Source: Maylandia zebra
Taxonomy: Eukaryota; Chordata; Actinopteri; Cichliformes; Cichlidae
Assembly: GCF_041146795.1 (NCBI RefSeq)
Contig: NC_135176.1
Span: 15,431,286 to 15,495,285, forward strand
Length of the DNA: 64,000 nt
Direction: 5' to 3'
Numbering within the stretch: the stretch's first letter is position 1; the number at the start of each line of letters is the position of its first letter. A model generated the notes under the pieces. It worked only from the letters and a program-made list of their open reading frames with translations, made no database searches and had not been told where the DNA came from. This document shows positions 2,150 to 43,695 of this stretch, one piece after another. A program made the position numbers and the translations under genes.

Positions 2150-2207
<58 letters not shown>

Positions 2208-7199: not shown

Positions 7200-7288
7200 T
7201 TAAGAATCCACCCAGTGACCCATAACCGAAAGCTGATTGACCTCACTGGGCAGGACCGAGGATCAGATGGCTGAGTAAGAGCTGAGTA

Positions 7289-8429: not shown

Positions 8430-8463
<34 letters not shown>

Positions 8464-8501
8464 TTATTTTATTTTTTTACTATTTAATTTGTAAAAATGT
8501 G

Positions 8502-8546
<45 letters not shown>

Positions 8547-9935: not shown

Positions 9936-10172
9936 CAACCCTACTTTGTCATTCCTGAGACTTCCCTGAGAAGAACTGAATATGACAGCCACAGGCAGAG
10001 TCCTGATTACCATACAGTACAATCTGAAGAATATCAGCATACAAAAAAGTAACCTTTCACACAAACAGTTATCCAAGTCACACACTCATTCACTGTCCTC
10101 CTTTGAAAGCCTTCAGCTGTGCTTTGAACCATCCGTCAGTCTTGCAGTACCGCTGAAGTGCAGCCACATGCT

Positions 10173-10681
10173 TCATCTCCGGTCCCGGTGCCTGCTCCTG
10201 TCTCCGTGCCTGCGGTCATCCCACTCTCGGCCTCTGTCCCGGTCATCTCTCCTTCCTCTGTTGCCCCACTCTTCTGTTCTGTGTCGGTCCCGATCGTCTC
10301 TGGCTCTCCCGCTTGGTCTGCCCCACTCCCTCCCTCCACCACCACCACCACCACCTCGTTCCTGCACCGGGTCTACCCCGAGATTGATGGGTTTACGGAA
10401 AGGCCTGTCCCTGCCGCCGAACCGCAGCTGTCCGGATTCCTTTTTCCCTCCAAGCCCGCCGCCGAGCCGCCGCGGCACCCATCCTTTAAGAGTCCTCTCT
10501 TGCTCAAAATCCACGAACACTTCATGCTGGTCGACCACCAGCTTGTTAGCTGTCCCGACCACAGATCGCTCCTCTTTGTACTCAATGAAGGCATATCTTT
10601 TGGAGAAACCCGTGACAATGTCCCGGACCAGCCGGAGCCGCTGGATGTCTCCGTACTTAGAGAACACTTTGTGTAGTTTAT
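10173..10681 (-). pseudogene. snrnp35: snrnp35 (U11/U12 snRNP 35 kDa protein), 5'-truncated copy
   Basis: The frame reads KVFSKYGDIQRLRLVRD, GGGLGGKKESGQLRFGGR and an arginine/aspartate-rich tail, which match the second half of the RRM and the conserved C-terminal region of SNRNP35, a protein of the minor (U12-type) spliceosome. The N-terminal part is missing. At 10681 the sequence jumps to what lies before 45673 in the left arm, with ATA shared at the join, so about 2.3 kb was lost from this arm. Compared with the left-arm copy it also lacks two residues in the RARRDANK segment and has GFSKR in place of GFSKG. It cannot make a normal protein. Confidence 0.85.
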
Positions 10682-11768
10682 ATGAAGTAAGGTTTATTAT
10701 AATAATAAATAATACTTTTTATAAAAATAAAAAGTTTATAAATAAAACTTTTTATTCATTGCACAATACTGTCACTTTTTTAAAAAAAATAATAATTTTA
10801 TATAATTACACCATAATCAATAGCATAGATAGTGACAGATTAAAGGCAATAGCATTGTTGTGTTATTAAGCCATTGGTCCAGCATGTGCAACCAGGACAC
10901 CGATTCCTTGATTCTACAAATCATTCTTCCATAATTCTTTTTGACAGTGCTGGTGGAAAGTGCCTTAAAACTTTTACAGATGTTAGACTGAATCGGACAT
11001 TGCTAGAAAAAATATTAGAGCCCAACCTGATTCCCTCACTGTGAGAGTCACAGCATCCTGTCAGTGTATGTACTCCCTGATTAATATGGCAAGGAATGAC
11101 TTATTTGAATGCCGCTTTTTTCACATCTCTGTAGGCCAGTCTTTTTTAGCTACACCACAGAACTCTCAAATGTGCATTTATCTTGTACACAAACGCCTCA
11201 CAGCTATACCATACCATCGACAGTCAGCTGTGGACACTCTCTTTCAGCATTTGGTTGCTGTGCACTACGTTTCATTTGGAGTCATGAGGGACATGTCTCT
11301 ATTTCTATGTCCAGGACCAAAATATGTTGGTTGTAACAAGCGGTTATTTGAGTTACTGTTGCCTAATAAAATGGGTGGTAAGTGTATAAAATTATCTAAA
11401 AAGACTGAATGTCAAATGCTATCCAAGTTACAGGTGCCTGAACACTCTTGGGACAATGCATTACAAAAACATTCTTTAATAAAACACTGAAACCACAACA
11501 GCTTCTGCTCCACGGTGAATAACTTCTTACAAAAATTGTGAACATGCTTCACTTCATTTTTCTGTACAGTTCCATCTGATACACATGGTACAGTATCAAA
11601 AGGGTTTGGAAAGGTGAAACAAATTCTTCTATGTAGTTTATTTAAAAAAGAACTTTTGCTGCGTAGATGCATCTAGTCTTGTTGTTCTAACAGCATAACA
11701 ATTATACATAAAGGTTGAGAAGGTGTGCTCTTTAGCTCTGCTCCAGATTCATCATTTTCTGAAAGCCT
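10682..11768. other. Intergenic stretch between snrnp35 and bud13 3' ends
   Basis: AT-rich sequence paired with 44587-45673 in the inverted orientation. Short open frames exist but show no family resemblance or splice structure. It probably contains the bud13 3' untranslated region just below 11769. Confidence 0.6.
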
Positions 11769-14700: not shown

Positions 14701-17700
14701 GCTTCCTTAAGTTTCTGCTGATGCATCTGGATCTGTGCCAACCTATACATACATTTTAACATAAACCATTGAACCACTTTTATAATTTTTTATGTGGATA
14801 TAATCACATAAACTGTGATATTTGAAATGATCATGCACATTTACCCTTTTCCCCACTGAGCGTATTTCTCGTCTCTTGCCGCTTTTTCACCAGCTTTCTT
14901 TTTCTGTTCATTTCTCTCTGAATTCAGATCCCTCCTTTTGCCACTTTTGTCTCTGAAAATCGTCTGAGCCTTACGCGATTCATCTGGTCAAAGGGGATGA
15001 ATGGGTAAGTATGTAGAAACTTCATTATTTAATTTTAGGACTAAATAAAATACGACAATATAGATGATAAGCTGAAATGAGATGCAAAGCTGTATGAAGC
15101 TCTTCAATCAATGGGTGTAAAAAAATCTTAAGAGAGAAAAGTTGATGAAACCTTCAAGTGGCTGATTGTGTTTTTCTCTGCGTCTGTTCTCCTTTTGCTC
15201 TTTCCTTAAAATGTCCACAGAAACCAGGCCTGCCTTTCCACCAGATAGCATCCTTTGGCCCTGGTTATAAAAAAAAAAAAGACAATTGAAAAATATAACA
15301 TTTGAGTGAAATCGGATTTGACATTAATCTTTGTTCCAACACAGTCTGCTTACCTGTGACTGGCCTGGCCTACGAGGTGGTGACAAATCTCCATCCGAGT
15401 CCCTTCCACTCGGTGGCTGCCCCCTGGGTGGAGACTGGTCAGAGTCTGAGCCCCGTTTAGTTTTTGAGGGCCTCCTTGGGGGAGATTGGTCGGAGTCTGA
15501 GGCGTTTCCCTTCAGGGGCCTTTTCCTCGGGGGAGACGGATCCGAGTCTGAATCATGTCTATTCTGACCCTTCTTAGCCACCGCTGACCGATGAGGATCC
15601 GGTGAGCGTTTTTTACTTAACAAGGATGAGCTGAGCTTGCTTTTGTTGGAGGCTGAATCTGACAAAGACACAGTTAATTTGTTAATTTTCATTTTGTAAT
15701 GCCTTTTGGACAAAAATTAAAGATTTATTATTAGATCAAGCTATGTCTTTAAAATAAATTTCAATTCAAAACTCATGTTAAATGGGTCTCTGCTTTTTAC
15801 TTTTATTCATATGCCACACCAGATTCCACTTTACAATTTAAATGGATCACTCACCTTTACTTTGCATTTTTTCTGACTTTCCTGAACACTGTCTTGGTGG
15901 TGACAAGTCTGGGGAGTCATGGCGTCTTCTCCTGGGAGGAGAGACATCTGGAGAGTCGTGACGTCTTCTCTTGGGAGGAGAGACATCTGGAGAGTCATGA
16001 CGTCTTCTCCTGGGAGGAGAGACATCAGGAGAGTCGTGACGTCTTCTCCTGGGAGGAGAGACATCTGGAGAGTTGTGATGTCTAGTCCTGGGAGGAGAGA
16101 CATCTGGAGAGTCATGACGTCTTCTCCTGGGAGGAGAGACATCTGGAGAGTCGTGAGGTCTAGTCCTGTGAGGAGAGACATCAGGAGAGTCGTGACGTCT
16201 TCTCCTGGGAGGAGAGACATCTGGAGAGTCGTGAGGTCTAGTCCTGTGAGGAGAGACATCTGGAGAGTCATGACGTCTTCTCTTGGGAGGAGAGACAACA
16301 GGAGAGTCGTGACGTCTTCTCTTGGGAGGAGAGACATCTGGAGAGTCATGAGGTCTAGTCCTGGGAGGAGAGACATCTGGAGAGTCATGACGTCTTCTCC
16401 TGGGAGGAGAGACATCTGGAGAGTCGTGAGGTCTAGTCCTGGGAGGAGAGACATCTGGAGAGTCATGACGTCTTCTCCTGGGAGGAGAGACATCTGGAGA
16501 GTCGTGAGGTCTAGTCCTGGGAGGAGAGACATCAGGAGAGTCATGACGTCTTCTCCTGGGAGGAGAGACATCTGGAGAGTCGTGAGGTCTAGTCCTGGGA
16601 GGAGAGACATCTGGAGAGTCATGACGTCTTCTCCTGGGAGGAGAGACATCTGGAGAGTCGTGAGGTCTAGTCCTGGGAGGAGAGACATCAGGAGAGTCGT
16701 GACGTCTTGTCCTGTGAGGAGAGACATCCGGAGAGTACTTCCGACTTCTCTTTGGTGGAGAGATGTCTGGAGAGTCATGCCGGGTCTTTTTGACAGGAGA
16801 ATCCTGTCCTCTTCTCTTTGAGTTAAATATCTTGTGTTTTTGTGCCACGGTCCTTTTTACGCCTGCGCATTGCAGCCATAGGATCGCCTTCTCTTTCCTG
16901 TTCTCTCAACATGCGGTCAAGATCCTCAAGTGGCTTAAGGGCTTCGCGCAGCGCTTCCTTAAGTTTCTGCTGATGCATCTGGATCTGTGCCAACCTATAC
17001 ATACATTTTAACATAAACCATTGAACCACTTTTATAATTTTTTATGTGGATATAATCACATAAACTGTGATATTTGAAATGATCATGCACATTTACCCTT
17101 TTCCCCACTGAGCGTATTTCTCGTCTCTTGCCGCTTTTTCACCAGCTTTCTTTTTCTGTTCATTTCTCTCTGAATCCAGATCCCTCCTTTTGCCACTTTT
17201 GTCTCTGAAAATCGTCTGAGCCTTACGCGATTCATCTGGTCAAAGGGGATGAATGGGTAAGTATGTAGAAACTTCATTATTTAATTTTAGGACTAAATAA
17301 AATACGACAATATAGATGATAAGCTGAAATGAGATGCAAAGCTGTATGAAGCTCTTCAATCAATGGGTGTAAAAAAATCTTAAGAGAGAAAAGTTGATGA
17401 AATCTTCAAGTGGCTGATTGTGTTTTTCTCTGCGTCTGTTCTCCTTTTGCTCTTTCCTTAAAATGTCCACAGAAACCAGGCCTGCCTTTCCACCAGATAG
17501 CATCCTTTGGCCCTGGTTATAAAAAAAAAAAAGACAATTGAAAAATATAACATTTGAGTGAAATCAGATTTGACATTAATCTTTGTTCCAACACAGTCTG
17601 CTTACCTGTGACTGGCCTGGCCTACGAGGTGGTGACAAATCTCCATCCGAGTCCCTTCCACTCGGTGGCTGCCCCCTGGGTGGAGACTGGTCAGAGTCTG

Positions 17701-20700
17701 AGCCCCGTTTAGTTTTTGAGGGCCTCCTTGGGGGAGATTGGTCGGAGTCTGAGGCGTTTCCCTTCAGGGGCCTTTTCCTCGGGGGAGACGGATCCGAGTC
17801 TGAATCATGTCTATTCTGACCCTTCTTAGCCACCGCTGACCGATGAGGATCCGGTGAGCGTTTTTTACTTAACAAGGATGAGCTGAGCTTGCTTTTGTTG
17901 GAGGCTGAATCTGACAAAGACACAGTTAATTTGTTAATTTTCATTTTGTAATGCCTTTTGGACAAAAATTAAAGATTTAGTATTAGATCAAGCTATGTCT
18001 TTAAAATAAATTTCAATTCAAAACTCATGTTAAATGGGTCTCTGCTTTTTACTTTTATTCATATGCCACACCAGATTCCACTTTACAATTTAAATGGATC
18101 ACTGACCTTTACTTTGCATTTTTTCTGACTTTCCTGAACACTGTCTTGGTGGTGACAAGCCTGGGGAGTCATGGCGTCTTCTCCTGGGAGGAGAGACATC
18201 TGGAGAGTCATGACGTCTTCTCCTGGGAGGAGAGACATCAGGAGAGTCGTGACGTCTTCTCTTGGGAGGAGAGACATCTGGAGAGTTGTGATGTCTAGTC
18301 CTGGGAGGAGAGACATCTGGAGAGTCATGACGTCTTCTCCTGGGAGGAGAGACATCTGGAGAGTCGTGAGGTCTAGTCCTGTGAGGAGAGACATCAGGAG
18401 AGTCGTGACGTCTTCTCCTGGGAGGAGAGACATCTGGAGAGTCGTGAGGTCTAGTCCTGTGAGGAGAGACATCTGGAGAGTCATGACGTCTTCTCTTGGG
18501 AGGAGAGACAACAGGAGAGTCGTGACGTCTTCTCTTGGGAGGAGAGACATCTGGAGAGTCATGAGGTCTAGTCCTGGGAGGAGAGACATCTGGAGAGTCA
18601 TGACGTCTTCTCCTGGGAGGAGAGACATCTGGAGAGTCGTGAGGTCTAGTCCTGGGAGGAGAGACATCTGGAGAGTCATGACGTCTTCTCCTGGGAGGAG
18701 AGACATCTGGAGAGTCGTGAGGTCTAGTCCTGGGAGGAGAGACATCTGGAGAGTCATGACGTCTTCTCCTGGGAGGAGAGACATCTGGAGAGTCGTGAGG
18801 TCTAGTCCTGGGAGGAGAGACATCTGGAGAGTCATGACGTCTTCTCCTGGGAGGAGAGACATCTGGAGAGTCGTGAGGTCTAGTCCTGGGAGGAGAGACA
18901 TCAGGAGAGTCGTGACGTCTTGTCCTGTGAGGAGAGACATCCGGAGAGTACTTCCGACTTCTCTTTGGTGGAGAGATGTCTGGAGAGTCATGCCGGGTCT
19001 TTTTGACAGGAGAATCCTGTCCTCTTCTCTTTGAGTTAAATATCTTGTGTTTTTGTGCCACGGTCCTTTTTACGCCTGCGCATTGCAGCCATAGGATCGC
19101 CTTCTCTTTCCTGTTCTCTCAACATGCGGTCAAGATCCTCAAGTGGCTTAAGGGCTTCGCGCAGCGCTTCCTTAAGTTTCTGCTGATGCATCTGGATCTG
19201 TGCCAACCTATACATACATTTTAACATAAACCATTGAACCACTTTTATAATTTTTTATGTGGATATAATCACATAAACTGTGATATTTGAAATGATCATG
19301 CACATTTACCCTTTTCCCCACTGAGCGTATTTCTCGTCTCTTGCCGCTTTTTCACCAGCTTTCTTTTTCTGTTCATTTCTCTCTGAATCCAGATCCCTCC
19401 TTTTGCCACTTTTGTCTCTGAAAATCGTCTGAGCCTTACGCGATTCATCTGGTCAAAGGGGATGAATGGGTAAGTATGTAGAAACTTCATTATTTAATTT
19501 TAGGACTAAATAAAATACGACAATATAGATGATAAGCTGAAATGAGATGCAAAGCTGTATGAAGCTCTTCAATCAATGGGTGTAAAAAAATCTTAAGAGA
19601 GAAAAGTTGATGAAACCTTCAAGTGGCTGATTGTGTTTTTCTCTGCGTCTGTTCTCCTTTTGCTCTTTCCTTAAAATGTCCACAGAAACCAGGCCTGCCT
19701 TTCCACCAGATAGCATCCTTTGGCCCTGGTTATAAAAAAAAAAAAGACAATTGAAAAATATAACATTTGAGTGAAATCGGATTTGACATTAATCTTTGTT
19801 CCAACACAGTCTGCTTACCTGTGACTGGCCTGGCCTACGAGGTGGTGACAAATCTCCATCCGAGTCCCTTCCACTCGGTGGCTGCCCCCTGGGTGGAGAC
19901 TGGTCAGAGTCTGAGCCCCGTTTAGTTTTTGAGGGCCTCCTTGGGGGAGATTGGTCGGAGTCTGAGGCGTTTCCCTTCAGGGGCCTTTTCCTCGGGGGAG
20001 ACGGATCCGAGTCTGAATCATGTCTATTCTGACCCTTCTTAGCCACCGCTGACCGATGAGGATCCGGTGAGCGTTTTTTACTTAACAAGGATGAGCTGAG
20101 CTTGCTTTTGTTGGAGGCTGAATCTGACAAAGACACAGTTAATTTGTTAATTTTCAATTTGTAATGCCTTTTGGACAAAAATTAAAGATTTATTATTAGA
20201 TCAAGCTATGTCTTTAAAATAAATTTCAATTCAAAACTCATGTTAAATGGGTCTCTGCTTTTTACTTTTATTCATATGCCACACCAGATTCCACTTTACA
20301 ATTTAAATGGATCACTGACCTTTACTTTGCATTTTTTCTGACTTTCCTGAACACTGTCTTGGTGGTGACAAGTCTGGGGAGTCATGGCGTCTTCTCCTGG
20401 GAGGAGAGACATCTGGAGAGTCGTGACGTCTTCTCTTGGGAGGAGAGACATCTGGAGAGTCATGACGTCTTCTCCTGGGAGGAGAGACATCAGGAGAGTC
20501 GTGACGTCTTCTCTTGGGAGGAGAGACATCTGGAGAGTTGTGATGTCTAGTCCTGGGAGGAGAGACATCTGGAGAGTCATGACGTCTTCTCCTGGGAGGA
20601 GAGACATCTGGAGAGTCGTGAGGTCTAGTCCTGTGAGGAGAGACATCAGGAGAGTCGTGACGTCTTCTCCTGGGAGGAGAGACATCTGGAGAGTCGTGAG

Positions 20701-23700
20701 GTCTAGTCCTGTGAGGAGAGACATCTGGAGAGTCATGACGTCTTCTCTTGGGAGGAGAGACAACAGGAGAGTCGTGACGTCTTCTCTTGGGAGGAGAGAC
20801 ATCTGGAGAGTCATGAGGTCTAGTCCTGGGAGGAGAGACATCTGGAGAGTCATGACGTCTTCTCCTGGGAGGAGAGACATCTGGAGAGTCGTGAGGTCTA
20901 GTCCTGGGAGGAGAGACATCTGGAGAGTCATGACGTCTTCTCCTGGGAGGAGAGACATCTGGAGAGTCGTGAGGTCTAGTCCTGGGAGGAGAGACATCTG
21001 GAGAGTCATGACGTCTTCTCTTGGGAGGAGAGACATCTGGAGAGTCATGAGGTCTAGTCCTGGGAGGAGAGACATCAGGAGAGTCATGACGTCTTCTCCT
21101 GGGAGGAGAGACATCTGGAGAGTCGTGAGGTCTAGTCCTGGGAGGAGAGACATCTGGAGAGTCATGACGTCTTCTCCTGGGAGGAGAGACATCTGGAGAG
21201 TCATGAGGTCTAGTCCTGGGAGGAGAGACATCTGGAGAGTCATGACGTCTTCTCCTGGGAGGAGAGACATCTGGAGAGTCGTGAGGTCTAGTCCTGGGAG
21301 GAGAGACATCAGGAGAGTCGTGACGTCTTGTCCTGTGAGGAGAGACATCCGGAGAGTACTTCCGACTTCTCTTTGGTGGAGAGATGTCTGGAGAGTCATG
21401 CCGGGTCTTTTTGACAGGAGAATCCTGTCCTCTTCTCTTTGAGTTAAATATCTTGTGTTTTTGTGCCACGGTCCTTTTTACGCCTGCGCATTGCAGCCAT
21501 AGGATCGCCTTCTCTTTCCTGTTCTCTCAACATGCGGTCAAGATCCCCAAGTGGCTTAAGGGCTTCGCGCAGCGCTTCCTTAAGTTTCTGGTGATGCATC
21601 TGGATCTGTGCCAACCTATACATACATTTTAACATAAACCATTGAACCACTTTTATAATTTTTTATGTGGATATAATCACATAAACTGTGATATTTGAAA
21701 TGATCATGCACATTTACCGTTTTCCCCACTGAGCGTATTTCTCGTCTGTTGCCGCTTTTTCACCAGCTTTCTTTTTCTGTTCATTTCTCTCTGAATCCAG
21801 ATCCCTCCTTTTGCCACTTTTGTCTCTGAAAATCGTCTGAGCCTTACGCGATTCATCTGGTCAAAGGGGATGAATGGGTAAGTATGTAGAAACTTCATTA
21901 TTTAATTTTAGGACTAAATAAAATACGACAATATAGATGATAAGCTGAAATGAGATGCAAAGCTGTATGAAGCTCTTCAATCAATGGGTGTAAAAAAATC
22001 TTAAGAGAGAAAAGTTGATGAAACCTTCAAGTGGCTGATTGTGTTTTTCTCTGCGTCTGTTCTCCTTTTGCTCTTTCCTTAAAATGTCCACAGAAACCAG
22101 GCCTGCCTTTCCACCAGATAGCATCCTTTGGCACTGGTTATAAAAAAAAAAAAGACAATTGAAAAATATAACATTTGAGTGAAATCAGATTTGACATTAA
22201 TCTTTGTTCCAACACAGTCTGCTTACCTGTGACTGGCCTGGCCTACGAGGTGGTGACAAATCTCCATCCGAGTCCCTTCCACTCGGTGGCTGCCCCCTGG
22301 GTGGAGACTGGTCAGAGTCTGAGCCCCGTTTAGTTTTTGAGGGCCTCCTTGGGGGAGATTGGTCGGAGTCTGAGGCGTTTCCCTTCAGGGGCCTTTTCCT
22401 CGGGGGAGACGGATCCGAGTCTGAATCATGTCTATTCTGACCCTTCTTAGCCACCGCTGACCGATGAGGATCCGGTGAGCGTTTTTTACTTAACAAGGAT
22501 GAGCTGAGCTTGCTTTTGTTGGAGGCTGAATCTGACAAAGACACAGTTAATTTGTTAATTTTCATTTTGTAATGCCTTTTGGACAAAAATTAATGATTTA
22601 TTATTAGATCAAGCTATGTCTTTAAAATAAATTTCAATTCAAAACTCATGTTAAATGGGTCTCTGCTTTTTACTTTTATTCATATGCCACACCAGATTCC
22701 ACTTTACAATTTAAATGGATCACTGACCTTTACTTTGCATTTTTTCTGACTTTCCTGAACACTGTCTTGGTGGTGACAAGTCTGGGGAGTCATGGCGTCT
22801 TCTCCTGGGAGGAGAGACATCTGGAGAGTCATGACGTCTTCTCCTGGGAGGAGAGACATCAGGAGAGTCGTGACGTCTTCTCTTGGGAGGAGAGACATCT
22901 GGAGAGTTGTGATGTCTAGTCCTGGGAGGAGAGACATCTGGAGAGTCATGACGTCTTCTCCTGGGAGGAGAGACATCTGGAGAGTCGTGAGGTCTAGTCC
23001 TGTGAGGAGAGACATCAGGAGAGTCGTGACGTCTTCTCCTGGGAGGAGAGACATCTGGAGAGTCGTGAGGTCTAGTCCTGTGAGGAGAGACATCTGGAGA
23101 GTCATGACGTCTTCTCTTGGGAGGAGAGACAACAGGAGAGTCGTGACGTCTTCTCTTGGGAGGAGAGACATCTGGAGAGTCGTGAGGTCTAGTCCTGGGA
23201 GGAGAGACATCTGGAGAGTCGTGAGGTCTAGTCCTGGGAGGAGAGACATCTGGAGAGTCATGAGGTCTAGTCCTGGGAGGAGAGACATCTGGAGAGTCAT
23301 GACGTCTTCTCCTGGGAGGAGAGACATCTGGAGAGTCGTGAGGTCTAGTCCTGGGAGGAGAGACATCTGGAGAGTCATGACGTCTTCTCCTGGGAGGAGA
23401 GACATCAGGAGAGTCGTGACGTCTTGTCCTGTGAGGAGAGACATCCGGAGAGTACTTCCGACTTCTCTTTGGTGGAGAGATGTCTGGAGAGTCATGCCGG
23501 GTCTTTTTGACAGGAGAATCCTGTCCTCTTCTCTTTGAAGACAACTCGGGTGAGTCATGTAGACCTCTGCTTAATGAGCCAGCCTCTGTATTTTGATGTT
23601 CTTTTCCATTTCCTTCCTCTGTGTCATCATTTTGATCCACTTTTAGGAGAGGAAGTAAAACTATAGTAAACAACAGTCTTAACTTAATATTGCACAAATC

Positions 23701-23814
23701 CCCCCCTACTTCTGTGACTTCTTATTTACCTCCAATTGCTTTCCATCTGTTGCTGGTCCTAAAAACTTCCATCTGTTTCACTTCCTCAGGTCGATCATCA
23801 ATCACCTCAGCAAT
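11769..23814 (-). CDS. bud13: bud13 (RES complex splicing factor), 5' end missing, internal exons amplified
   Basis: BUD13 is a subunit of the RES complex, with SNIP1 and RBMX2, which binds the activated major spliceosome. Reading down the minus strand: exon 23730-23814 ([14 protein letters not shown]), exon 22728-23639 ([10 protein letters not shown] repeats), 22227-22531 ([11 protein letters not shown]), 22025-22133, 21718-21856 ([15 protein letters not shown]), then 21452-21615 ([15 protein letters not shown]). Four more unit copies follow. The final exons are 12095-12176 ([12 protein letters not shown]) and 11769-11862 (SNGFEQKRY, ending KWSVEDM and stop). Exons coding the usual N-terminus (the family's LSKAEYLKRYL region) are not found upstream. 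Every exon with DLDRML has ATATTT where the donor GT should be; reading through ends at TQDI and a stop. The last two exons hold the RBMX2-binding segment, so they are reached only by an unusual splice. Whether this locus makes protein is unknown. Confidence 0.8.
12319..14570 (-). repeat. bud13: bud13 array unit 1
   Basis: A 2252-base unit with exons at 12327-12490, 12593-12731, 12900-13008, 13102-13406 and the minisatellite exon from 13603 up to the join at about 14570. It is followed (in gene order) by the only complete 3' terminal exons. Its exon at 12593-12731 codes KSRD where other units appear to code KRRD. The donor of the minisatellite exon is GTGAGT. Confidence 0.9.
13653..14560 (-). 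repeat. bud13: 39-base coding minisatellite ([13 protein letters not shown])
   Basis: Tandem 39-base repeats code a 13-residue unit, [13 protein letters not shown], alternating with variants ending PRTRP, which gives a 78-base higher-order pattern. BUD13 proteins generally carry such RHDSPD/RHDTPD repeats. Because 39 is a multiple of three and the unit lacks stops in several frames, long spurious open frames appear on both strands. Equivalent tracts occur in each array unit and at 63346-64000. Confidence 0.95.
14571..16822 (-). repeat. bud13: bud13 array unit 2
   Basis: This unit is also 2252 bases and differs from unit 1 at only a few positions, the same minisatellite repeat number included, so the two are probably the youngest pair in the array. 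The minisatellite exon again has a GTGAGT donor. Confidence 0.9.
16823..19035 (-). repeat. bud13: bud13 array unit 3
   Basis: 2213 bases, one 39-base minisatellite repeat shorter than units 1 and 2. The minisatellite exon donor is GTCAGT, a weaker form shared with units 4 and 5. Confidence 0.9.
19036..21443 (-). repeat. bud13: bud13 array unit 4
   Basis: 2408 bases, the longest unit, four 39-base repeats longer than units 1 and 2. The reading frame of the minisatellite exon stays open. Confidence 0.9.
21444..23538 (-). repeat. bud13: bud13 array unit 5 (5'-most in gene order)
   Basis: This unit is the only one whose minisatellite exon continues upstream into unique bud13 sequence (ELSSKRRGQ and on to 23639). 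In the other units the exon is broken at this codon and joined to sequence eight bases into the intron after the DLDRML exon. It therefore shows the ancestral exon and fixes the breakpoint of the tandem duplication, with the shared bases TCAAAGAGAAG beside the join. Confidence 0.9.
23730..23814 (-). CDS. bud13: bud13 exon, first recognisable 5' exon
   Basis: An 85-base exon codes [20 protein letters not shown] and continues NRWKAIG, matching the conserved [13 protein letters not shown] segment of BUD13. It is bounded by TGTTCAG before and GTAAATAAG after. It begins in phase 0. It follows the truncated end of usp42, whose last exon ends in phase 0, so direct splicing between them would keep the frame. 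Confidence 0.85.
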
Positions 23815-23924
23815 CTGAACAGTTAACAAGAGATTAAGTTTTAAAACAGAACTTGTTGACATAACAAAATTACCCAAACTATAAGCATACCCATTTAATA
23901 CAATAGATTAGATTTCAGCATTAA

Positions 23925-24090
23925 GTAAATGGCCTGTATTTGTATAGCGCTTTACTTAGTCCCTAAGGACCCCAAAGCACTTTACACGTTCAGTCATCCA
24001 CCCATTCACACACACTGGTGATGGCAAGCTAAATTGTAGCCACAGCCGCCCTGAGGCGCACTGACAGAGGCGAGGCTGCCGGTGTTCCAG
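23925..24090. mobile_element. Interspersed teleost repeat (TATAGCGCTTTAC family)
   Basis: The segment has the TATAGCGCTTTACT, CTAAGGACCCCAAAGC and GCGCACTGACAGAGGCGAGG blocks of a common fish dispersed repeat. It lies between bud13 and the end of usp42. No target duplication was found. Confidence 0.6.
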
Positions 24091-24597
24091 ATCTACTGGC
24101 GTTTAGATCAACTGGCGTTAGTCGAACAGATGTGTGGCAGACTTCCGTTTCAGGAGCTGCTACCTACAGACTAGCAAAAAAACGCCAAATGTGTCATCTG
24201 TGACACTTGTGAGGTTATCTCAAACACACTCCGTCAGTCTTGATGCTGTTGAACAACAAAATGTTTAAAAATGTGGCGAGTTTACCTAGGGTTATCCTCA
24301 TGCGCGACGCGATCGCGAAAACAGCAAACAATTAACACCATGCCGATGTTGTTCACAGGACAACAAGAGTAAACGATCGGGAGACTCTTGTTGTCGTTAT
24401 CGTTCCCCTCACACGGTTTGTTTCTCCGAATTCAGCGTTTTTGCTTCACAACTAAAGCGAGCAGTTTACTTTGTGTGCACTAACATGGACTCGAGTCAAC
24501 CAGTGCCACCACTGGCCAAGTGCCACAGCCTACAGCCAGATCAACTTGTGACACACATCTGCAGCACGTCTGAATTCGTTTCATGCACAAACATTTT

Positions 24598-25731
24598 AGA
24601 GTTGGTTGTTATATACAGTCTGTATAAGTGTGGTTAATCTAATAAACATTTGTAAGGAGATGGCAGTTACTGTGAATGTACAGCAGTTACACAGTGATTA
24701 GTAATAAACAGTCAGACAATGACCCTGACTTTCTCATTCAGTCTTGTAGATTGAATGCACCTTCTGTGGAAAGTGGTACCACACAGTGTGTGTGGACTTC
24801 CCCTGTGCAGAAGGCGACTACAAATGTTGTGCATGTTAAATAAACAGAAAAAAGTGATCCCTGTTGTCTTTGCTTACTGATTGTTTTCAGTGTTGACAAG
24901 CCACATTGCTGCCATTGCATCTTTCAACATGTTTGTGGGTAGATTTGGATGTACCAGGGGTAAGTGCAGCCACTCAGCCTCTACTCAATGTCATCATAGC
25001 AAGTTAATCTAGTAGTGGGCTATGGTATTTGGCCACAGGTGGCAGCAGTGGACTGACCTCCATTTGAAACTGCTCCAGCTGCTGTGTGATAGTGGATCTG
25101 CTACAAATTGAAGATCATATGGAAGTTTTGGAAATTAACCCTTGTATTATGTTGAAAAACAAAAAAGTGACATTGATTTTGTTGCGGGTCATTTTGACCC
25201 ATACTGTGTAAATCCACTCAGAATTGTCAAGAAACTGCAATAAAACAATAGCACCTTTATTTTCCATCAGATAAACATGTAGAACACAGACATACAACAG
25301 TGACTTTCCATAACTATTTTAGGAACAATTTGGTTTTTCGTTCTTACAAACACGTATTTTGAACTTGCCCAACGTTCTCAGTTTTTCAATGCTCAACATT
25401 TTCGATTTTGTCCACATGATGGACAGAATGTAACTGTGTGCTTTCTGCAGATGTACTTCTTGTATTTCTCACAAAAAGTGCTTGTTTTCAAACAGGAATC
25501 TTCCTAACTAAGATTTAAAACAAAAGATTTCTACGTCTCCTCCAGTCTCACAAACAGAACCAATCGACACACCTGAGTCACTGACTTTCTTATATCCACT
25601 CACTCTCACTGGCTCTGTTTATTACTAATCACTGTGTAACTGCTGTAAATTCACAGTAACTGCCATCTCCTTACAAATCTTCATTGGATTAACCACACTT
25701 ATACAGACTGCATATAACTACCAACTCTCCA
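24598..25731. mobile_element. Element with long inverted ends (possible foldback DNA transposon)
   Basis: The first about 118 bases, beginning AGAGTTGGT, recur in reverse complement at 25615-25731 with about 90% identity. The ends face outward like terminal inverted repeats. There is no transposase and no clear target duplication, so a chance inverted duplication is possible. It fills most of the gap where usp42 3' exons and bud13 5' exons would have been. Confidence 0.45.
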
Positions 25732-26100
25732 GCCATGTTGATGGATTGCCTATATTGGCTGGAAATATTAATTTCCAGAGAAAGGACACAGACAGACGAT
25801 GCTTACAGGATGTGATGTGACAACACTAATGAAATATTGACGTGTCATATTTGTCCAAGGCGTATTTCATTGTTATGGAAAAAGAGAATATTAAAATCAT
25901 GATGACCAATTGGAGCAGTGATTTCTATGACTTTGTGTATATAATTTGGAATTTTGTACAAATGTAGGCCAATAAGGAATATATGATATCATTTCATTCT
26001 TTTCAAACAGACACAATTGAAAGGTACAAATGTATTTTGCATGAAACACTGGGTTTAACAAAAACAACAACATTATCAGTACCCTCAGGTGAGGAAGTAC

Positions 26101-29100
26101 CTTGTTCATGTGTGGTGGCAGCTGGGGACCTATGAAGCCAACACTGTTGTGAGGCATGGTGGCGATGGTGCGTGGGCTCACCACCGGCTGGGGAGATGCC
26201 TGACCAGATATGCCAGCGTTATGGTTCAAGTGGCTGTAGTCCCCAGTTTTTCCCACATCTGTGCACCTGATGACATGGAAAAAAGAATATTAACCATGAC
26301 AAAGCATCAACATTATAACATTAGGTTATAATAATACATTTTCTACAAGAAAAGTGAGAATAAACATGTCTACATTATTAAATAATGATGGGAAAAGTTC
26401 TACTGAAGGAATAAGCCTAGAATGTTTAAAAATACCGATGTTTACTCACTTGATGTAGAAGAGGACATAGGCCTGCTGGTTGAGAACAGTGCTAATGTCA
26501 CTGACTGACACGGACGAGTCATTCATCTGAAACCACTGCTCATTGCTGGCCTGTGAGACAGAATGAGAGAGATGTGACACAGCAGATTCAGTTTCTGAAT
26601 TGAATTTGAGCTAAAAAGAAGAATCTTATGGTTATATAGGGGTCTTTTTTTTCTTTCTTTCAATGCATACAAAGTAGTTTTCTGCTGAAATGTGTTGTTT
26701 ATGGTGTTTGTTTGTTTGTACTACGCAACAGCAGCATTCAAACAGATTCGGGCACAGCCAGTACCTTAATATAGCAGAAATAGTGTCCAGTATGACAACT
26801 CAATCCAGAGTGAACCAGCACAGCATACAGCCTGTAGAGCTGGGGCTCCCCGTGGGACTGCGACATGAAGGGCCGCAGATCCAGATGCTCCAAATACTTC
26901 ACATCCTGATGACCACCAAACAAAAAAATTCAAACATTACATGCAAATATCCTGTTTTATAATAAAACAAAGCATCTGTCATGTATCTTTATGACTTAAG
27001 CAGACACTATTGGCCATTTGCCTTTGTGATTTTGCCTCCACTGAAGTCTGCAAAGCGTTTGAGTGAGATGGTGAGCACATTGGCGCTGCGATGGATTGTA
27101 AATCTTTTTGAGGCCGTTACCATTTTGTTGCACCTGAAGGAAACAAACATTCAGCTTGTTGACAAAAATCACACCTAAACACTAAAACTCATCATGGTTT
27201 GGCATCTCTTTGACTTACTTGGTGCATTTATAAGCATTTTCACCACCCAGCTGTTCTGGCTTGACAAACTGCTCCAGAGCTTTGGAGACATTTGGAGCAG
27301 TCTATATGAACAGAGAGAGAGAGGAAAAACCTCACACTCCATAATGCAGAGAATACATAGTAGCAACGTCACTTTGAATGTTGTCCAATTACCTTAATTT
27401 CCAGAGTGACATCCAGAAAAGGGTCAAATGTATCTGAGACAGCTTTGCAGTTTAAACATTTAACTGAAACAGAAATCAGTGCTATGAGTATCACACAAGC
27501 TGTAAGACATAAAAAGACAAATAAAAGAAAAATAAATCAAACCTTAAAAAACAGTGACTTACCTCTGGATCTTAGGTACCCGCCAAACACTTGATGGATG
27601 AAAGAGGTTGCCTGCGTTTGCCTGTCCAATCTATAATAAAAAGATAAAGCACAAAAGTTAACTAATAAGGACAGTGCAACAATTAACTGACTGACCATTT
27701 ATTTTTTAGCATTTTGGAACCAGACAATCACTTTACAGTATTCAAGTAGCAGAAAAGACAATAGGAGGAATTGGAGCACGATTAATTACTTAAGAGGCCA
27801 TCTGCTGCTACACGGGAAGAATTGATTTGATGAGAATTGACACTTTAGGTTCTTAAAAAAAGAAATGAATTAATAAATTATTTTTAGGAGTCTAACAAGA
27901 AGCACAACACTCAGCCCAGTGCATCTGTTAAACGTGTAGTTTTGGTTAAATGTGCACATAGACTTCGAAGCTCTATAGTAACACATAGAAAAACCTGGAT
28001 TTTCTGAATTTTGCTGCTGCAATAATAGCACTAATGCCATTAGGGTGAATAAGAGATGACCTGAGGGGTTGAGTGCTCCTGCTCACACTGCTTACCCTGT
28101 TGCCTCAGAAGAAATCTATACTAGACACTAAGTCTGGCAGCTCTCTGCCATAATCCCAGACACCTGTTTTACTACACGTTTAAGCCGCTTCTGATCTTTT
28201 CAAGCCCTGTTACCAAAACAAGCTACCACACCCAGTGTAAGAATACTTTCTGTGTTGGAGCAGTCAAGTTCATTAAAAAACTTGATATAATAATGAGGTA
28301 TTATATCAAGTGGCTTGCCTAGTATGTAAACTGAGGTGTCAGTCAGGCAAGAGACTGAGGAATCTGCATTTCTGAAAAATACTCTCAGCAATTGAAGCAT
28401 TAATAGTTAAAAGGAACTAGTATAAACTGCACTTCCTGAAAAACAGGATAAAGGATTTATTTCATATTCTCCTACTGTCACGGTGTTACCTCTACGTAGC
28501 TAATTATGGATCTTACTACATAATAAAGTGCAAACACTGTCAAGCCCAAGTAAAAATATTTTTGTGTGTTTAACTTGTTTAGAATGCATGCAATGTAAAA
28601 TGACACTCACTTGGTTCCAGGTAAGCAGGACCTTTGCATAGCATCCACTGTGCACCGCAGGAATTCATGAGCATCTTCCTGGCTTCCATAGCGGAAGTGG
28701 TTTGCAATCCCTGTGTGAGGGGAACGAGGAAAAACAGAACCAAAAAACAAAGCAGGAGGTGAATTATTGTAAAGGATACCACAGTTAAATGCAAGTTTAC
28801 ACTTATTTAAAAACAGAATTCAAAATCCCTCCAGATTATTTCCCTCCAAAATTACAAAAGGTAAACAGTCACACAGCGCCTCCTATCATTAAAATATAGG
28901 TAAACACTTTGCACAGAGCACAGCAACAACAGTCATCCACTTACACCCAAGCTCATTGAGTACACCAATGGGCTTAATGACATTCCCAGAGTTGGTAAAA
29001 ACCTGAATGATGTGGTTTTGCATGGTACACATCATACAGAACCCTGGCTCATGACCTGCAGCAGAGACAGAGACAAAATACTGAGTGAGTAAGGAGTGAT

Positions 29101-30166
29101 ACAATGTGAGAATCAGCGCAGGACTGCGTAACACCACTGTTGGTGAAATAAACTTACATGTTTTGGAGTGCTCCCGCGTCAGCATGTAGTTTGCTAAAGG
29201 AGGGGTGTAGCTGAGACACTGCAGGGCTGAGTTGAGGAAGCAGGTGTTCCCCATGTTCTGGAGGCCTGCACCAATGAGGTGAACCTGGGCCCAATTTAGG
29301 CTGAGCCGATCTGGTGAGAACAGCACCTTCTGGGGCAAGTCAATTCCATCGCCACTGCTGATCACTGACACACAGAGCCACAATTATTACTAAAAATCTG
29401 TTTCAATACATTTTAAAAAGGAGATAATTTAATGCCACCTTACTTATACAACCACACACTGGCACATGGCAAAGTCATGTCAGGACATCACAGTAATAGC
29501 TACAACTATTAACAGTTATATAATGTGATTCTGGCCACTGTGAAAAACTCCTAAACAGCCTCAGGAAGAAAGATAGGACAATTTGCCTTCTCCTTTGTTT
29601 CTGCTAAACAAGTTGGGCTGCCGGTCTTTATATAAAAACAGCAATTGCATCACGAGCTGAAGTGACTGATCATGCAAAGCTGGATGCATTACATAACTGG
29701 ATGAATGAACGGAGAAGGGAAGCAGCAACACAACACCCACAAAAGCAGTTGTCAAACTTGTGTGAAAGCAGAAGCAAAAAGATTAGCTGTACGTTACTAA
29801 AACCAATTCTGACAAATATGGGTAAATAATGGCTAAAAAGTGTGGTTCCATATTTGCTAAAACTGGTTGGAAAACTATTCTGTCTGACAATAAAAATCTT
29901 CAAACAGCTTAAAAAGACATTTTGAAAAAAAGCCAGGCTTTGCTCTGACCTTGGTCCTTGGGCTGGTCCTCAGAGGAGGGTGTACTCTGAGGACCAGCCC
30001 CTTGGTCCTTGGGCTGGTCCTCAGAGGAGGGTGTACTCTGAGGACCAGCCCCTTGGTCCTTGGGCTGGTCCTCAGAGGAGGGTGTACTGTTGTACACAGC
30101 AGCTCCAGGTCCGAGTCCGGCTGACTCGTGGTCAGACTTTTCTGAAGATCTGTCAACTATGGTCAT
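26101..30166 (-). CDS. usp42: usp42 ubiquitin hydrolase, catalytic part only
   Basis: USP42 removes ubiquitin from nuclear targets. Exons, 5' to 3': 29950-30166 ([12 protein letters not shown]), 29158-29364, 28945-29055, 28611-28710, 27563-27630, 27393-27463, 27219-27301, 27022-27133, 26765-26905, 26450-26550 and 26101-26266. Together they make 459 codons with matching phases and no stop. The Cys box [12 protein letters not shown], the QEDAHEFL motif, zinc-binding CNCK and CTKCNK pairs and the His box [11 protein letters not shown] are all present, so the catalytic domain looks complete. The last exon ends [13 protein letters not shown], a USP42 match rather than USP36. The long basic nuclear tail (several hundred residues in other vertebrates) is absent: no further exon is seen before bud13. 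The intron after 27022-27133 starts with GC. Confidence 0.88.
28060..28400 (-). mobile_element. Degenerate LINE fragment in usp42 intron
   Basis: The minus strand has [16 protein letters not shown] followed by KRLKRVVKQ, which resembles the C-terminal part of L2/CR1-group reverse transcriptases (IESILT, WYGN, LQRVVR). The frame is interrupted several times, and the fragment is much older than the LINE in the palindrome arm. Confidence 0.45.
29949..30091 (-). repeat. usp42: 51-base coding minisatellite in usp42 N-terminus
   Basis: About 2.8 copies of a 51-base unit code [17 protein letters not shown] in tandem within the first coding exon. The unit is in frame and acidic/proline-rich, ahead of the catalytic domain. 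The human USP42 sequence as I recall it shows no such repeat here, so it is probably lineage-specific. Confidence 0.9.
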
Positions 30167-31349
30167 TGTTCATAGCTGCATTAGGAACATAGACACATAT
30201 GTTTATGAACTGAAAACAAAACAAAACAAAAAAAACAACAACAACTCATTGTTATTTTGGAAAAAGGGAAAGGGAAAGAAAACTTAAATACTACATCAAT
30301 CCTACACTGGTTAGGTAGCAGTACAGTGAGTTTGGACAACAACAACTAAATACAAAAGCCACATTAACAGATTATACCCAATTTCGCTGTGCAAAAAACT
30401 GCACAATGACAATAAAAAGCTCTAAGTCTCTTATAGCTTATAGTTAAATAACGCTATATTAAACACTGCCCTCATACCATCGCCTAAACTTTCAGCAAAC
30501 AAGTATCAGAAATTGTGTTAGATTGGATGATTTGTTTACATTCAAAAACAGACTAGCATAAGTGAGAGCCAAATATTAGTTTTTGACCGTTTGTTTTTAT
30601 TTGAATCATCTTGTCAGATTCCTTTTAAATAACAAACACCAGTAGACAAGAGTAACTTTCGACATCTAATTTAACTCTGTCCAACTAACAAACTTAAAAT
30701 ATCGACAAAAATTAGTGTTTAGAAAACTCAAGAGGGGAAATGCCAGATAACCCACTCGACCGAGGAAATTTCCAAGTCGGAAGCACGTTTACAACAGAAG
30801 CAGCTGTTCCCTCCCACCTGCTCTTACAGAGTGGCTCACATTGGCTAAATGACGGCTGCTAGGCCTTTAACACGCAGCGTCGCAAAACCTCAAGAAAACA
30901 CACAAAAAACCCTGATCATATCAGACGGAGAGCAAGTTGAGAGCTTACCAGTCTTGTCCAAATCCGAGATGGAATGACGCGCACTTAAAGAAGATGCAAA
31001 AACCATGGAAACCACATAAACATATTTGTACATTAACATAAAGCTGTTGTACACACACACACATATGAAGAGAGAGAGAGAGTATGCATAGTATGCAAAC
31101 GGCTACCAAACAGCCATCATAATTCGTCATACAATGAGAACAGAACAAATCAACAATTGACAATGACTAATTAATATTAAAATCTGTAATATAATGTATT
31201 GTTTGGAGTTTAGTCCGTTACTGTTACTATTTTTACCATTTCTTCTTGGAGCAACTGTAATCCACATAATTTCCTTAGGGATTAATAAAGTATTTTGATT
31301 CTGATTGTTTCAGGATGACCTGCCATTATCCAATGACACATCTGCTTAC
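30167..31349 (-). other. usp42 upstream region
   Basis: There is no coding match. A possible non-coding first exon ends at 30949 (ACTG followed by GTAAGCTC on the minus strand). The stretch 30750-30880 is relatively GC-rich for the neighbourhood and could hold the promoter. Both points are inference. Confidence 0.35.
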
Positions 31350-31434
31350 CTGTATCTTTTGCTCGTTTCTCCTCCTCTTCTTTTCTCTTTTTTCTAAACT
31401 GAGGACCTGATGGCTTTGAACTTTTCTTGTCCAT
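31350..31434 (-). CDS. Possible first exon of a ZMYM1-like, hAT-derived protein
   Basis: A short exon starts ATG at 31434, codes MDKKSSKPSGPQFRKKRKEE and ends in a good donor, GTAAGCAG. The lysine-rich opening with PSGPQFRKKR is what I know from fish zinc-finger MYM-type 1-like proteins, which derive from hAT transposases. No later exon was recognised toward 30167, so this is at best a stranded fragment. Confidence 0.35.
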
Positions 31435-32796
31435 CTTCCATTGGTTTTAATTTTGCACTGCAGTATGAACACCCATCCCTCAACCCAAGGATCACCACAA
31501 CATGATCTAACACACCTTTCACAGATTCACTTTGTCTAGGGTGCATTTCTGAGATTTCACACAACCCAGGATTCAAATCATGAATACATAATGGGCTTGG
31601 ATTTACATCATTATGAATGAAATGCGCTCTATTTGGAAGCAGCCGCCCCCTCCTCCCCTTTCGGTTGTGTGTGAGACTTTAAATCATCAAACTGTAAATT
31701 TTAAATTGTTATTGATCCCTTTATCCCTAGTCCTAAAGTGTATATTTATTTTCTTACTCTTCTTATATATATTGTTTGTTTACTTGCACTGATGTAACTG
31801 GAGCTTAGTCGTCTCCTTGTTCAGTCTGAGGTCACTAGCCTGTCTGGACCTAAACTCTGCTGCAGGTCCATATATCAAACGTTAACTATGGCATTACTAA
31901 GCGTTGAAAAACTGTCTAAAGTCTTTCATCTTTAATAAAATGATCAGCGTTCTGCTCTACCAGGTGTAACAATTGAGTTTAACATCCAGGCATCCATGAA
32001 AACGGAATTTATGACATTTAACGGAGTTAGAAGTTAGCAGGGAGTTAGCTCGCTAGCTTCTATCTAAATACAATATAGCATGTCCTGACTGCCGGGTTTT
32101 GGAAACAAATGAAAACGTACAGCTCTGCTATCACTTCCAACATAAATGAAGACAGAAAGCTAAACAGCAGTGACGTTTGTAGGGTTACTGAAGTTGGGCT
32201 AGCTGGTATATAATGATGTGCTATGTGACCGCTAGCAACACAGCTATGTTAGCATAATATAAACAAGCTAACTTTTTTCCCACTCGATAAAAGTTAACGT
32301 GAGTGTTCTCGGTGGTCAGGAACAAATGTAATCGCATGGCAGGATGCTGTAAAAGGACCAAACTTCAGCCAGGAGAACAACTGAGATAATCCATCCACAA
32401 TACGAGGTTAGTCATTCATATACTGCTGCATGGGCTGGGCTGCAGTTACATTCTAAGGTTTTAAAAACTGAGCTTAAATAAATGATTAGCGGTAATAAAA
32501 GCAGAGGGAGGTCAACAGTGATCACTGACTGTTTTAGGAGCTTTTTGAGATTAAATAGAAGAAAATACAAAACATTAAACATGTTAACAACACAAAAGCC
32601 ATATTAAACGCAGACTACTTTAGGCCCGGAAGTAGGATTTGTCACGTCATCACTTAACCATCGGATAGCATGTGAAATAGATGACACTTTCAACAGTTAT
32701 GTCCAGATTAAGGGGGACTACAGAAGTGTGTATACTAAAAAAAAAGAGAGAGAAAGAAATTTAAATAAATACAGCATATTTGTGCTTCACAGTCAA
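31435..32796. other. Non-coding stretch
   Basis: No exon, RNA gene or transposon terminus that I can support. A short polypyrimidine and GC-rich patch occurs near 31640-31660. Confidence 0.5.
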
Positions 32797-33350
32797 TTCA
32801 ATTTTATTGATATACCGCCAGATCACAAGAACAACCTCCTCAAGGTGCTTTATACTGTAAGGTAAGAACCCTACAATAACACATAGAAAACCCCAACAAT
32901 TAGCACTTGGCGACAGTGGGAAGGAAAAGCTCTCCTTTTACAGGAAGAAACCTCCAGCAGAACCAAGTTCACGGAGGGGCAGCCACTTGAACTGACCCTG
33001 TGTGTGTGTGTGAATGACTGGAGGGAGACAGGACAAAGACAGGCTGTGGGAGAGAGACAGAAAGTATTAATATTTAATGATGCAGAGTAGTGTACAAATA
33101 CAAGGAGAGCGAAAAAAGATGAGTGAAGAAGAAACACTCTGTGTATCATGGAAAGCCCCCAGAACCATAAACCTATTGCAGGGTAACAAAATCTCCCGAA
33201 TCCAAACTGGGAGCTGGTTCCATAGAAGAGAGGCTTGAAAGCCAAAGACTCTGCCTCCCTTTCTACTTTCAAATGCCCAAGGAACCATGAGTAAGCCAGC
33301 ATTCTGAGACTGAAGTGGTCTGTTGGGGTTATATGGCGATACGGAGTGGT
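32797..33350 (+). mobile_element. Interspersed teleost repeat, older full-length relative
   Basis: It begins CAATTCAATTTTATTGATAT and carries the same GGCGACAGTGGGAAGG core as 9578-9935, but is more diverged and extends further, to the GTCTGTTGGGGTTATATGG block near 33330. A GT run interrupts it near 33000. Confidence 0.65.
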
Positions 33351-34500
33351 TGATTCTCAAGCTTTAGCTTACATATTGTGTGTGTGTTTGAGTCAGATAT
33401 AGCACATTTTTAACCCATTGCTCAGTACGAGTAACATGTCCATGTCATTCTCCCTTATAGTCACTGCACTTTGTCCCACATTTATTTGGTCCTACGTTTA
33501 TTTGGATCTGGTCACATTAGTTGTCATGCATTGGGGGTACTGAAATACAGTAGGACGTGTTCTCCTGGAGTCTACCACTGGGATGTTAACAGTGGATTGG
33601 TTTCTAGGTCCTGTTGGCTGCCTGGGACCTCCATAGATCAGGTGTGCTCTGGATTCTCAGTGGGCTTGTTTTGTTGGGGAAAGTAGCTTAATACCTTTGT
33701 TGAGCAGTTTTTGTGGTCTGGTTTTCATCCACTTGTAGAGGCTGCTGTTACTGGGGAGTGTAACTGCGATGGGATGCATGACTGGTCTGCAACAATGTCC
33801 AGGTGGGTTGGTAAGTGTCAAAACACCACCCAGTGCCAGCACCCAAAGTATCCCAGATGAACACTGCATTGTAACAGGCAATCAGTGTTAGTTACCCTGT
33901 AGTTATGTAGTTAATGAGGTGGCTCATCGATGTACAGTACATCTAGGCGTCTCTAGTTGTCTGTGAGGAAAACGGGGTTTAAAAAAAAGAGAAAAAAAAG
34001 GGAAAAACGGCAGGGTACTTTTTAATCCTTTAACACATCAGCTGACATACTCAGTTCCTTGTAACGCTTTCACTTCACCCGGAATATACTGACAATTAGC
34101 GCTGAAATGAAACAGATTTTCAGGACTTTAATTTGAGCTGTTGTGTTATTTAAGTATTTATTCATAGGAAAATAATTTATTTAAAAATTTGCTCGAGTAT
34201 TTTCTATTATTAAAATTATTGTTGTTGTTGCTGCCGCTGGTGTTCATATTGTTAAAAACCTGTGGATCACAGAGTTATCGGCCCATTTGTATTCTTTGCC
34301 AAGTTTTCCACCAATTTCAGCACGCGCCAGCAGGAGTCTCCCGTTCCCATAGTAACAAGACTAGGATCCGTCCGTAGACAAAGTTAGCCAGTCTTTGCCG
34401 ACTTCTTTCTTTGGTGCGACCAACATTAAGCCCTGTTAGTTACTCTGCACGGCCGTACGTCCGCTTTGCTTCACCTAATAAGTAAATAAGAAGTCAGCGC
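33351..34500. other. Intergenic stretch upstream of arhgap42
   Basis: No exon recognised. 33640-33960 looks like an old repeat fragment on the minus strand, but I cannot assign it to a family. Confidence 0.4.
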
Positions 34501-34785
34501 GACGCCTTATATGAAAGTAGCGACAGTAAGAAGGCTGGAGAGAAGCTGCATGGAGCTCGTTGTATAGCTTAGCCAAGCCTTCTCTATCAGAGACTCTGTT
34601 GTGTTCTTGTGTCCGGAAGTTCTGCTGGGAAAAAAGTAAGAAAGGCATGAAAAAGAGTAGCTGGAGGAAATTTCTGAGAAATTTGCTCGGAGCACACTGA
34701 AACACCGTTTGGTGTCTCGCCGAGGAGGCAGAGAAGGCGTCGTGCTGTTGTTCTCTCGTAATTAGCGGCGTGTATTAATCTAGCG

Positions 34786-43260: not shown

Positions 43261-43284
43261 AGACTGATTTTTAAAAAAAGGAGA

Positions 43285-43540: not shown

Positions 43541-43695
43541 CCAACGACTGAGTAATCATTCCAGTTATACTTCTTTAAACTGCACTGCCTACGCGCATAT
43601 GTAGTTGGTGCATTGTAATTGAAATTCACAGACACCCAAGAAGATTCGCAGATGTGGAAAGTATAAAACCCACTTAAGTCTGAACAACACTTAAG

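Follow-up and report, generated by a model that had tools for sequence, protein, structure and literature searches.

Can the 5′ half of one gene and the headless remainder of another, lying side by side on one strand, form a single gene? The question is raised by a stretch of 64,000 nucleotides from the cichlid Maylandia zebra (NCBI RefSeq assembly GCF_041146795.1, contig NC_135176.1, positions 15,431,286 to 15,495,285 of the forward strand; hereafter the window), in which usp42, a deubiquitinase gene without its 3′ exons, is followed on the minus strand by bud13, a splicing factor gene without its 5′ exons. Here we report the exon anatomy of the two parts, the database proteins that carry the same junction, and the sequence changes that bear on the age and function of the fused locus. 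In our estimation (probability about 0.53), it is a genuine young chimeric locus that has been amplified and is under weakened constraint in this genome, and whose bud13 end is preserved in full in Simochromis.

Structure of the locus

On the minus strand, eleven usp42 coding exons extend from a start codon (ATG) at 30166 down to 26101; six bud13 exons follow between 23814 and 21444. They are arranged as follows (a slash marks an exon boundary):

29950..30166, minus strand: usp42 exon 1, coding part, with the start codon
26765..29364, minus strand: usp42 exons 2-9, encoding the UCH domain with the GNTCFLN and GHYFCY boxes retained
29364-29158, 29055-28945, 28710-28611, 27630-27563, minus strand: usp42 exons 2-5
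27463-27393, 27301-27219, 27133-27022 (GC donor), 26905-26765, minus strand: usp42 exons 6-9
26550-26450, 26266-26101, minus strand: usp42 exons 10-11, exon 11 extending to a likely natural donor (AAG/GTACTT, phase 0)
23815..26100, minus strand: chimera intron of 2286 bp between usp42 exon 11 and the first bud13 exon
23730..23814, minus strand: first bud13 exon present, starting in phase 0; ordinary BUD13 (P0126) has 78 residues ahead of it
22728..23639, minus strand: bud13 RHDSPD-repeat exon
21718..22531, minus strand: bud13 exons 22531-22227, 22133-22025 and 21856-21718
21444..21615, minus strand: terminal coding exon of the predicted protein, ending in GTKTQDI-stop and merged with the next RHDSPD exon (exon end at about 20321)

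Assembled through its splice sites, the chimera comprises 17 exons with a total of 3099 nt, which correspond to 1032 codons (459 of them from usp42) and a TAA stop at 21446-21444. At the join, both the donor (GTACTT after 26101) and the acceptor (TTCAG before 23814) are in phase 0, and all 16 introns are of the GT-AG type except for a GC donor after usp42 exon 8 (AAG/GCAAAT). The phase-0 join, the GTACTT donor, the two codon counts and the stop had been given in an earlier reading of the letters without database searches (the sequence-only reading), and all were reproduced when the 17 exons were rebuilt; the shared phase by itself is weak evidence, as it has about one chance in three. The same reading held that usp42 has lost its 3′ exons, with none in the gap, and bud13 its 5′ exons. 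This stood up, since neither residues 471-1204 of ordinary USP42 (P0013) nor residues 1-78 of ordinary BUD13 (P0126) had a tblastn match in the window (E up to 1).

The ordinary cichlid proteins USP42 (P0107, P0013) and BUD13 (P0126, P0123) represent the sources of the two halves, and both ordinary genes are present in the related cichlid Astatotilapia calliptera (P0107, P0126). P0123, a protein of Sarotherodon galilaeus with a Bud13 domain, bears the source name 'cohesin complex subunit SA-1/2', an apparent misannotation. Unlike its sources, the chimera lacks the 734 further residues, basic overall, that follow residue 470 or so of P0013, and its product lacks the 78 N-terminal residues and the C-terminal exons of BUD13. 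Ordinary USP42 has 46 residues between SAG and AAVYN in exon 1, of which only 4 are left (-42) in the window and in Simochromis; exon 1 of the window also contains a 17-aa in-frame repeat with copies starting at residues 27, 44 and 61. The chimera intron holds two inverted 114-bp copies (25615-25728 and 24598-24711; 94.7%) and a Cys-rich remnant, which we take to be piggyBac-like.

Database proteins and splice sites

Protein matches were taken from the best 120 of 2636 (search with the usp42 half), the best 120 of 527 (junction-centred search) and the best 120 of 213 (search with short fragments). Of the 324 proteins compared, two have the join, P0006 and P0011. P0006, listed as encoded by the window and found with the usp42 half, has 1110 aa with a UCH and a Bud13 domain; it has the same C-terminus (GTKTQDI) as the window product and a longer repeat, and since 3 residues and 78 gap columns separate the two, it must stem from another copy. 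P0011, a 'BUD13 homolog' of Simochromis diagramma with 878 aa, has both domains and the same join, and the junction HMNK/IAEVIDD is identical in the two proteins. P0011 further resembles the chimera of the window in its UCH domain, in the loss of BUD13 residues 1-78 and in its usp42 half, in which 414 of 425 aligned residues (97.4%) are identical, but differs in its shorter repeat and in the retention of the whole BUD13 C-terminus and of ordinary BUD13 residues. Judged from these sequences, two or more lineages of African cichlids share the fused locus, and gene prediction picked the same splice in both database chimeras; at the level of gene models, two parental gene parts are joined in frame in more than one species.

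No third chimera was found among the best 120 of the 527 junction-centred matches, and none of the short-contig (lgn) protein rows among the matches listed contains the join. The search with short fragments (best 120 of 213) returned usp42-like fragments of Maylandia zebra, Haplochromis burtoni, A. calliptera and a second Simochromis locus, all without bud13. P0205 of Maylandia zebra matched the query with 100% identity over 58% of its length, from which a Malawi-type haplochromine follows as the probable source of the window. A literature search for usp42 or bud13 together with cichlids found nothing, and the literature on usp42 together with bud13 contained nothing about fish in its titles and the beginnings of its abstracts; for cichlid duplications and chimeras, the only entry for ubiquitin in one paper checked by terms was unrelated.

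The motif at the end of exon 11 is present in 89 of the 120 best usp42 matches, 85 of which continue with ..NG.. (SSLHVNGNG and similar). The remaining four are the two chimeras and two proteins (P0053, P0114) that switch to VL.. right after the lysine, and a switch to V.. at the terminal lysine of exon 11 is likewise found in P0207, P0229 and P0243. The end of exon 11 resembles a natural boundary because these divergent proteins turn to V or VL, as translation into an intron starting with GTACT would. A coding continuation of exon 11 beyond 26101 was rejected, as the window reads VLPHLR where 85 of the 89 rows have ..NG... On the acceptor side, ordinary BUD13 reads ...EEEAPV/IAEVIDD, and the join apparently uses natural splice sites on both sides.

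Sequence divergence and constraint

Over 336 codons, the window and Simochromis share 14 differences from the ordinary USP42 of A. calliptera (P0107), with six more in the window only and one in Simochromis only. Eleven of the shared differences are derived in the chimera; the other three are changes of A. calliptera itself, since P0107 also differs from P0013 there. Some of the derived residues are shared by a Maylandia zebra fragment (P0205) and an H. burtoni model (P0229). The latter has A427 and S434, which are later changes of the window, and lacks T362 and P442, and the second Simochromis copy (P0243) has L358 and lacks E374 and S390. As read from these alignments, the derived residues of P0229, P0243 and the window form a stepwise series.

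Conservation at the sites changed on the chimera branch was assessed for residues 84-403 in 105 rows, taken from the best 120 usp42 matches, that included at least one bird and excluded P0107 and P0013. The 15 chimera changes were filtered (ordinary residue equal to the consensus), and 8 unfiltered changes between two ordinary cichlid USP42s served as control. Columns conserved to at least 95% were hit by 12 of the 15 chimera changes, compared with a base rate of 77% (p 0.70 for avoidance), and by only 1 of the 8 control changes (Fisher p 0.006 vs the chimera). Without the filter, the counts were 12/16 vs 1/8 (Fisher p 0.008), and with the filter on both sides they were 12/15 vs 1/6. At a threshold of at least 98%, the chimera changes hit 8/15 (base rate 62%, p 0.33).

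For the bud13 half, conservation was assessed in the 27 of 68 BUD13 rows that had the required motif, with P0006 representing the array form. The array form carries 11 substitutions, 3 of which affect fully conserved columns, together with a deletion of six residues, whereas the bud13 half of Simochromis departs from the two ordinary comparators at a single column. These patterns suggest that the window copies are probably under weakened constraint and that the Simochromis half is either maintained or simply the ordinary gene.

The tandem array and the lost donor

The chimera lies within a large duplicated unit, and its bud13 part belongs to a tandem array:

59..49773, no strand assigned: segmental unit of about 49.7 kb, of which 59-14268 recurs at 49774-64000 with 99.3% identity
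12318..23538, minus strand: array of five tandem bud13 units with lengths of 2096-2408 bp
23538-21443, 21442-19035, 19034-16822, 16821-14570, 14569-12318, minus strand: the five array units
12176-12095, 11862-11769, minus strand: bud13 C-terminal exons, intact but behind a mutated donor
43697..44583, plus strand: inverted bud13 3′ fragment, frameshifted, with the donor retained (ACACAAG/GTGTTT)

Pairwise comparison of the 1331-bp tails, five from the array and a sixth from the next large unit, gives 3-9 substitutions and no indel. In all six array copies, the donor position ahead of the bud13 C-terminal exons reads ACACAAG/ATATTT, and because the inverted fragment has retained the donor, the array sequence is the mutated form. 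With GATATTT at the donor position, the exon runs into the stop, which is why the product ends in GTKTQDI. In four of four fused exons, the stop lies 928-1123 nt upstream of the exon end (about 1.1 kb for the predicted product). According to the exon-junction rule, a stop far upstream of an exon end marks an RNA for nonsense-mediated decay (NMD), and the chimeric RNA of this genome is therefore a predicted NMD target. Skipping the exon with the stop would not restore the bud13 C-terminus, as the phases clash (exon e ends in phase 2, and the next exon needs phase 1). One of the six bud13 copies has also lost the exon-d donor (17413, minus strand; ATTTCA instead of GTTTCA).

Domains of the predicted product

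A complete ubiquitin hydrolase domain and the absence of the bud13 C-terminal segment had both been proposed from the letters, and profile matches bear out the two statements. The UCH profile (PF00443) covers the whole domain at residues 105-402 of P0006 with 206.9 bits (cut-off 23.9), and the window product has GNTCFLN at 111 and GHYFCY at 363. Coverage of PF09736 (Bud13) is limited to positions 1-100 of 144 in P0006 and extends over 1-143 of 144 in P0011, so that only the Simochromis form of the two chimeras has a nearly complete Bud13 domain. BUD13 of the RES complex has a complete domain with a C-terminal RBMX2-binding segment, of which P0006 falls short, and USP42 proper has a basic disordered C-terminal region (P0013 471-1204) that has no match in the window. 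Among PDB sequences, P0011 matches USP36 (8bs3_A) best, and the same structure leads the Foldseek matches of the P0006 model (E 2.1e-32, TMt 0.61, root mean square deviation 9.0); with a mean pLDDT of 46.8 (26 rows) or 48.5 (58 rows), the model is of low confidence and serves as a fold match only.

The tails behind the catalytic domain carry a net charge of +53 over 651 aa in P0006, +27 over 453 aa in Simochromis and +25 over 734 aa in ordinary USP42. By sequence, the chimera swaps the basic tail of USP42 for the basic RHDSPD tail of BUD13. In human USP42, the positively charged disordered C-terminus is reported to drive targeting to nuclear speckles, and constructs without it are diffuse (PMC8329168). 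If made, the chimera would by analogy plausibly be a speckle-directed deubiquitinase, and for the form in the window we consider decay more likely than function.

Other elements of the unit

The 49.7-kb unit is a palindrome-rich amplicon. It contains an inverted repeat of 1.68 kb (245-1915 and 4740-6419; 99.2%) and another in three pieces (8520-12641 and 43697-49782; 1061, 761 and 1984 columns at 98.2, 92.9 and 97.2%). Identical reverse-transcriptase open reading frames of 346 aa, one per large unit, are located at 7290-8330 and 56986-58026 (plus strand), the former with an RVT_1 match. Two copies with an RRM domain (Pfam) at 47827-48527 (plus strand) and 10173-10718 (minus strand) are presumably snrnp35-like (U11/U12 35K). 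In the first, the frame beginning DWSPIAKVYDPLKAG... hits a stop after LLTLLCPA and the RRM goes on in a different frame, and in the second the N-terminal part is missing; by their sequences, both look like pseudogenes. A fragment at 34770-34975 (plus strand) resembles what we assume to be exon 1 of ARHGAP26, which makes the unit a mosaic of gene pieces. Upstream of usp42, an exon-like stretch at 31355-31445 (minus strand), MDKKSSKPSGPQFRKKRKEEEEKRAK, presumably resembles the start of a ZMYM/TTF-type transposon-derived protein. Long proteins with a USP36/42-type UCH domain were also found in birds (Bubo, Cuculus, Columba; P0001-P0005, P0007-P0010), several of them on one Columba livia contig, and perhaps represent an independent amplification of the same enzyme family.

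Discussion

We favour a genuine young chimeric locus with the following history. A segmental duplication would have brought exons 1-11 of usp42, its 5′ half with the full catalytic domain, to a site upstream of a bud13 gene without its first exons on the same strand, and a read-through transcript could be spliced into one frame because the exon-11 donor and the bud13 acceptor are both in phase 0. The join would have arisen before the split of Simochromis from the Malawi-type lineage, and the Simochromis model retains the entire BUD13 C-terminus. In the lineage of the window, the locus would then have entered the tandem array of about 50 kb, with a five-fold multiplication of the bud13 exons. 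Every copy seen would have lost the donor ahead of the C-terminal exons, and the two halves would have changed under weakened constraint. Chimeric RNA produced here would stop early and would mostly be degraded by NMD. We infer the common origin of the two joins, transcription, splicing and NMD from these patterns, splicing across the join being a prediction of the gene models.

Several observations weigh against this interpretation. Fully invariant columns of the usp42 half were hit by only 2 of the 15 chimera changes, fewer than expected by chance (base rate 37%, p 0.044), and this avoidance may hint at remaining constraint. The two changes are A362T, beside the His box, and G374E, at positions invariant in 107 rows; in a broader set of rows, G374 is nearly invariant and A362 is not listed as such. 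The reading frame is open across 17 exons, with indels in frame; we rejected this as a sign of selection, because the 17 missense changes imply only about 0.8 expected nonsense changes and an open frame is thus weak evidence. P0006 represents 19 member sequences. Of the 11 substitutions in the bud13 half, 3 fall at columns conserved to at least 95%, compared with 62 of 158 columns (27 rows, p 0.31), a count that points in neither direction.

As an alternative, the product might be a working fusion, a USP42-type deubiquitinase with the BUD13 RHDSPD tail in place of its own basic tail that acts at speckles or the spliceosome, with its dosage raised by copy number. The intact Cys and His boxes, the UCH score of 206.9 bits in P0006, the partial avoidance of invariant columns and the junction in two lineages all fit such a protein, as does the strongly basic tail, given that speckle targeting of human USP42 is reported to require a positive disordered C-terminus (PMC8329168). 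We nevertheless hold it to be unlikely, as NMD is predicted for the RNA in this genome, the changes strike columns conserved to at least 95% nearly at chance rate, and the bud13 half of the array has lost residues that are otherwise conserved as well as the final part of the Bud13 domain. The broader proposal that African cichlids gained a new USP42-BUD13 fusion gene before the Simochromis-Malawi split, and that in one lineage it became an array of many copies whose product is shortened, strongly basic and directed to speckles, appears to us decidedly unlikely. Of the in-frame gene envisaged by the sequence-only reading, the fusion itself has found counterparts in database proteins with the same junction; a stable product coupling a deubiquitinase to the spliceosome is not supported, in view of the predicted NMD and the near-chance changes at conserved sites.

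It is also conceivable that the neighbouring fragments are never joined in RNA and that gene prediction chained them as phases and homology allow; P0011 may then represent the ordinary bud13 locus, to which a usp42 fragment was chained in error, in agreement with its ordinary bud13 half (1 differing column). P0006 and P0011 are the sole carriers of the junction among the 324 proteins, an M. zebra model runs into intron 10, an H. burtoni model continues past exon 11 into the following intron, neither of them joining bud13, and AATAAA signals are present within the gap at 25623 and 25261. The same join in two genomes, its apparently natural splice sites and the lack of usp42 3′ sequence between the two parts nevertheless make such chaining improbable. 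An assembly misjoin in the window would fit the repetitive nature of the region but is very unlikely indeed, because a second copy with a different repeat length (P0006) and a second species (P0011) show the same join.

Deubiquitinase chimeras and arrays formed by segmental duplication are already a known kind, with USP6 and USP17 as examples. USP6 is a hominoid chimera of USP32 and TBC1D3 and resembles the locus described here in that part of a deubiquitinase gene was fused to an unrelated gene via segmental duplication in a young lineage. It differs in that its USP domain lies behind the TBC domain and that it is a known expressed gene, whereas the chimera here leads with the UCH domain and is known from sequence alone. 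The USP17 repeat is about 4.7 kb long and its genes are unfused, whereas the unit here has about 49.7 kb and includes the bud13 fusion. The USP17 deubiquitinase genes (DUB/USP17, RS447) are located inside a tandem repeat with repeated lineage-specific duplication (PMC2874809), a likeness to the array of the window.

Early development of the zebrafish depends on the RES complex and on bud13 as part of it (PMC6047831), and even if the locus is unexpressed, annotation gives it the name of an important splicing factor. If it is expressed, ubiquitin removal and splicing would be linked in a single polypeptide within a textbook radiation, and a chimeric gene could be followed from its birth through amplification to decay across dated species splits.

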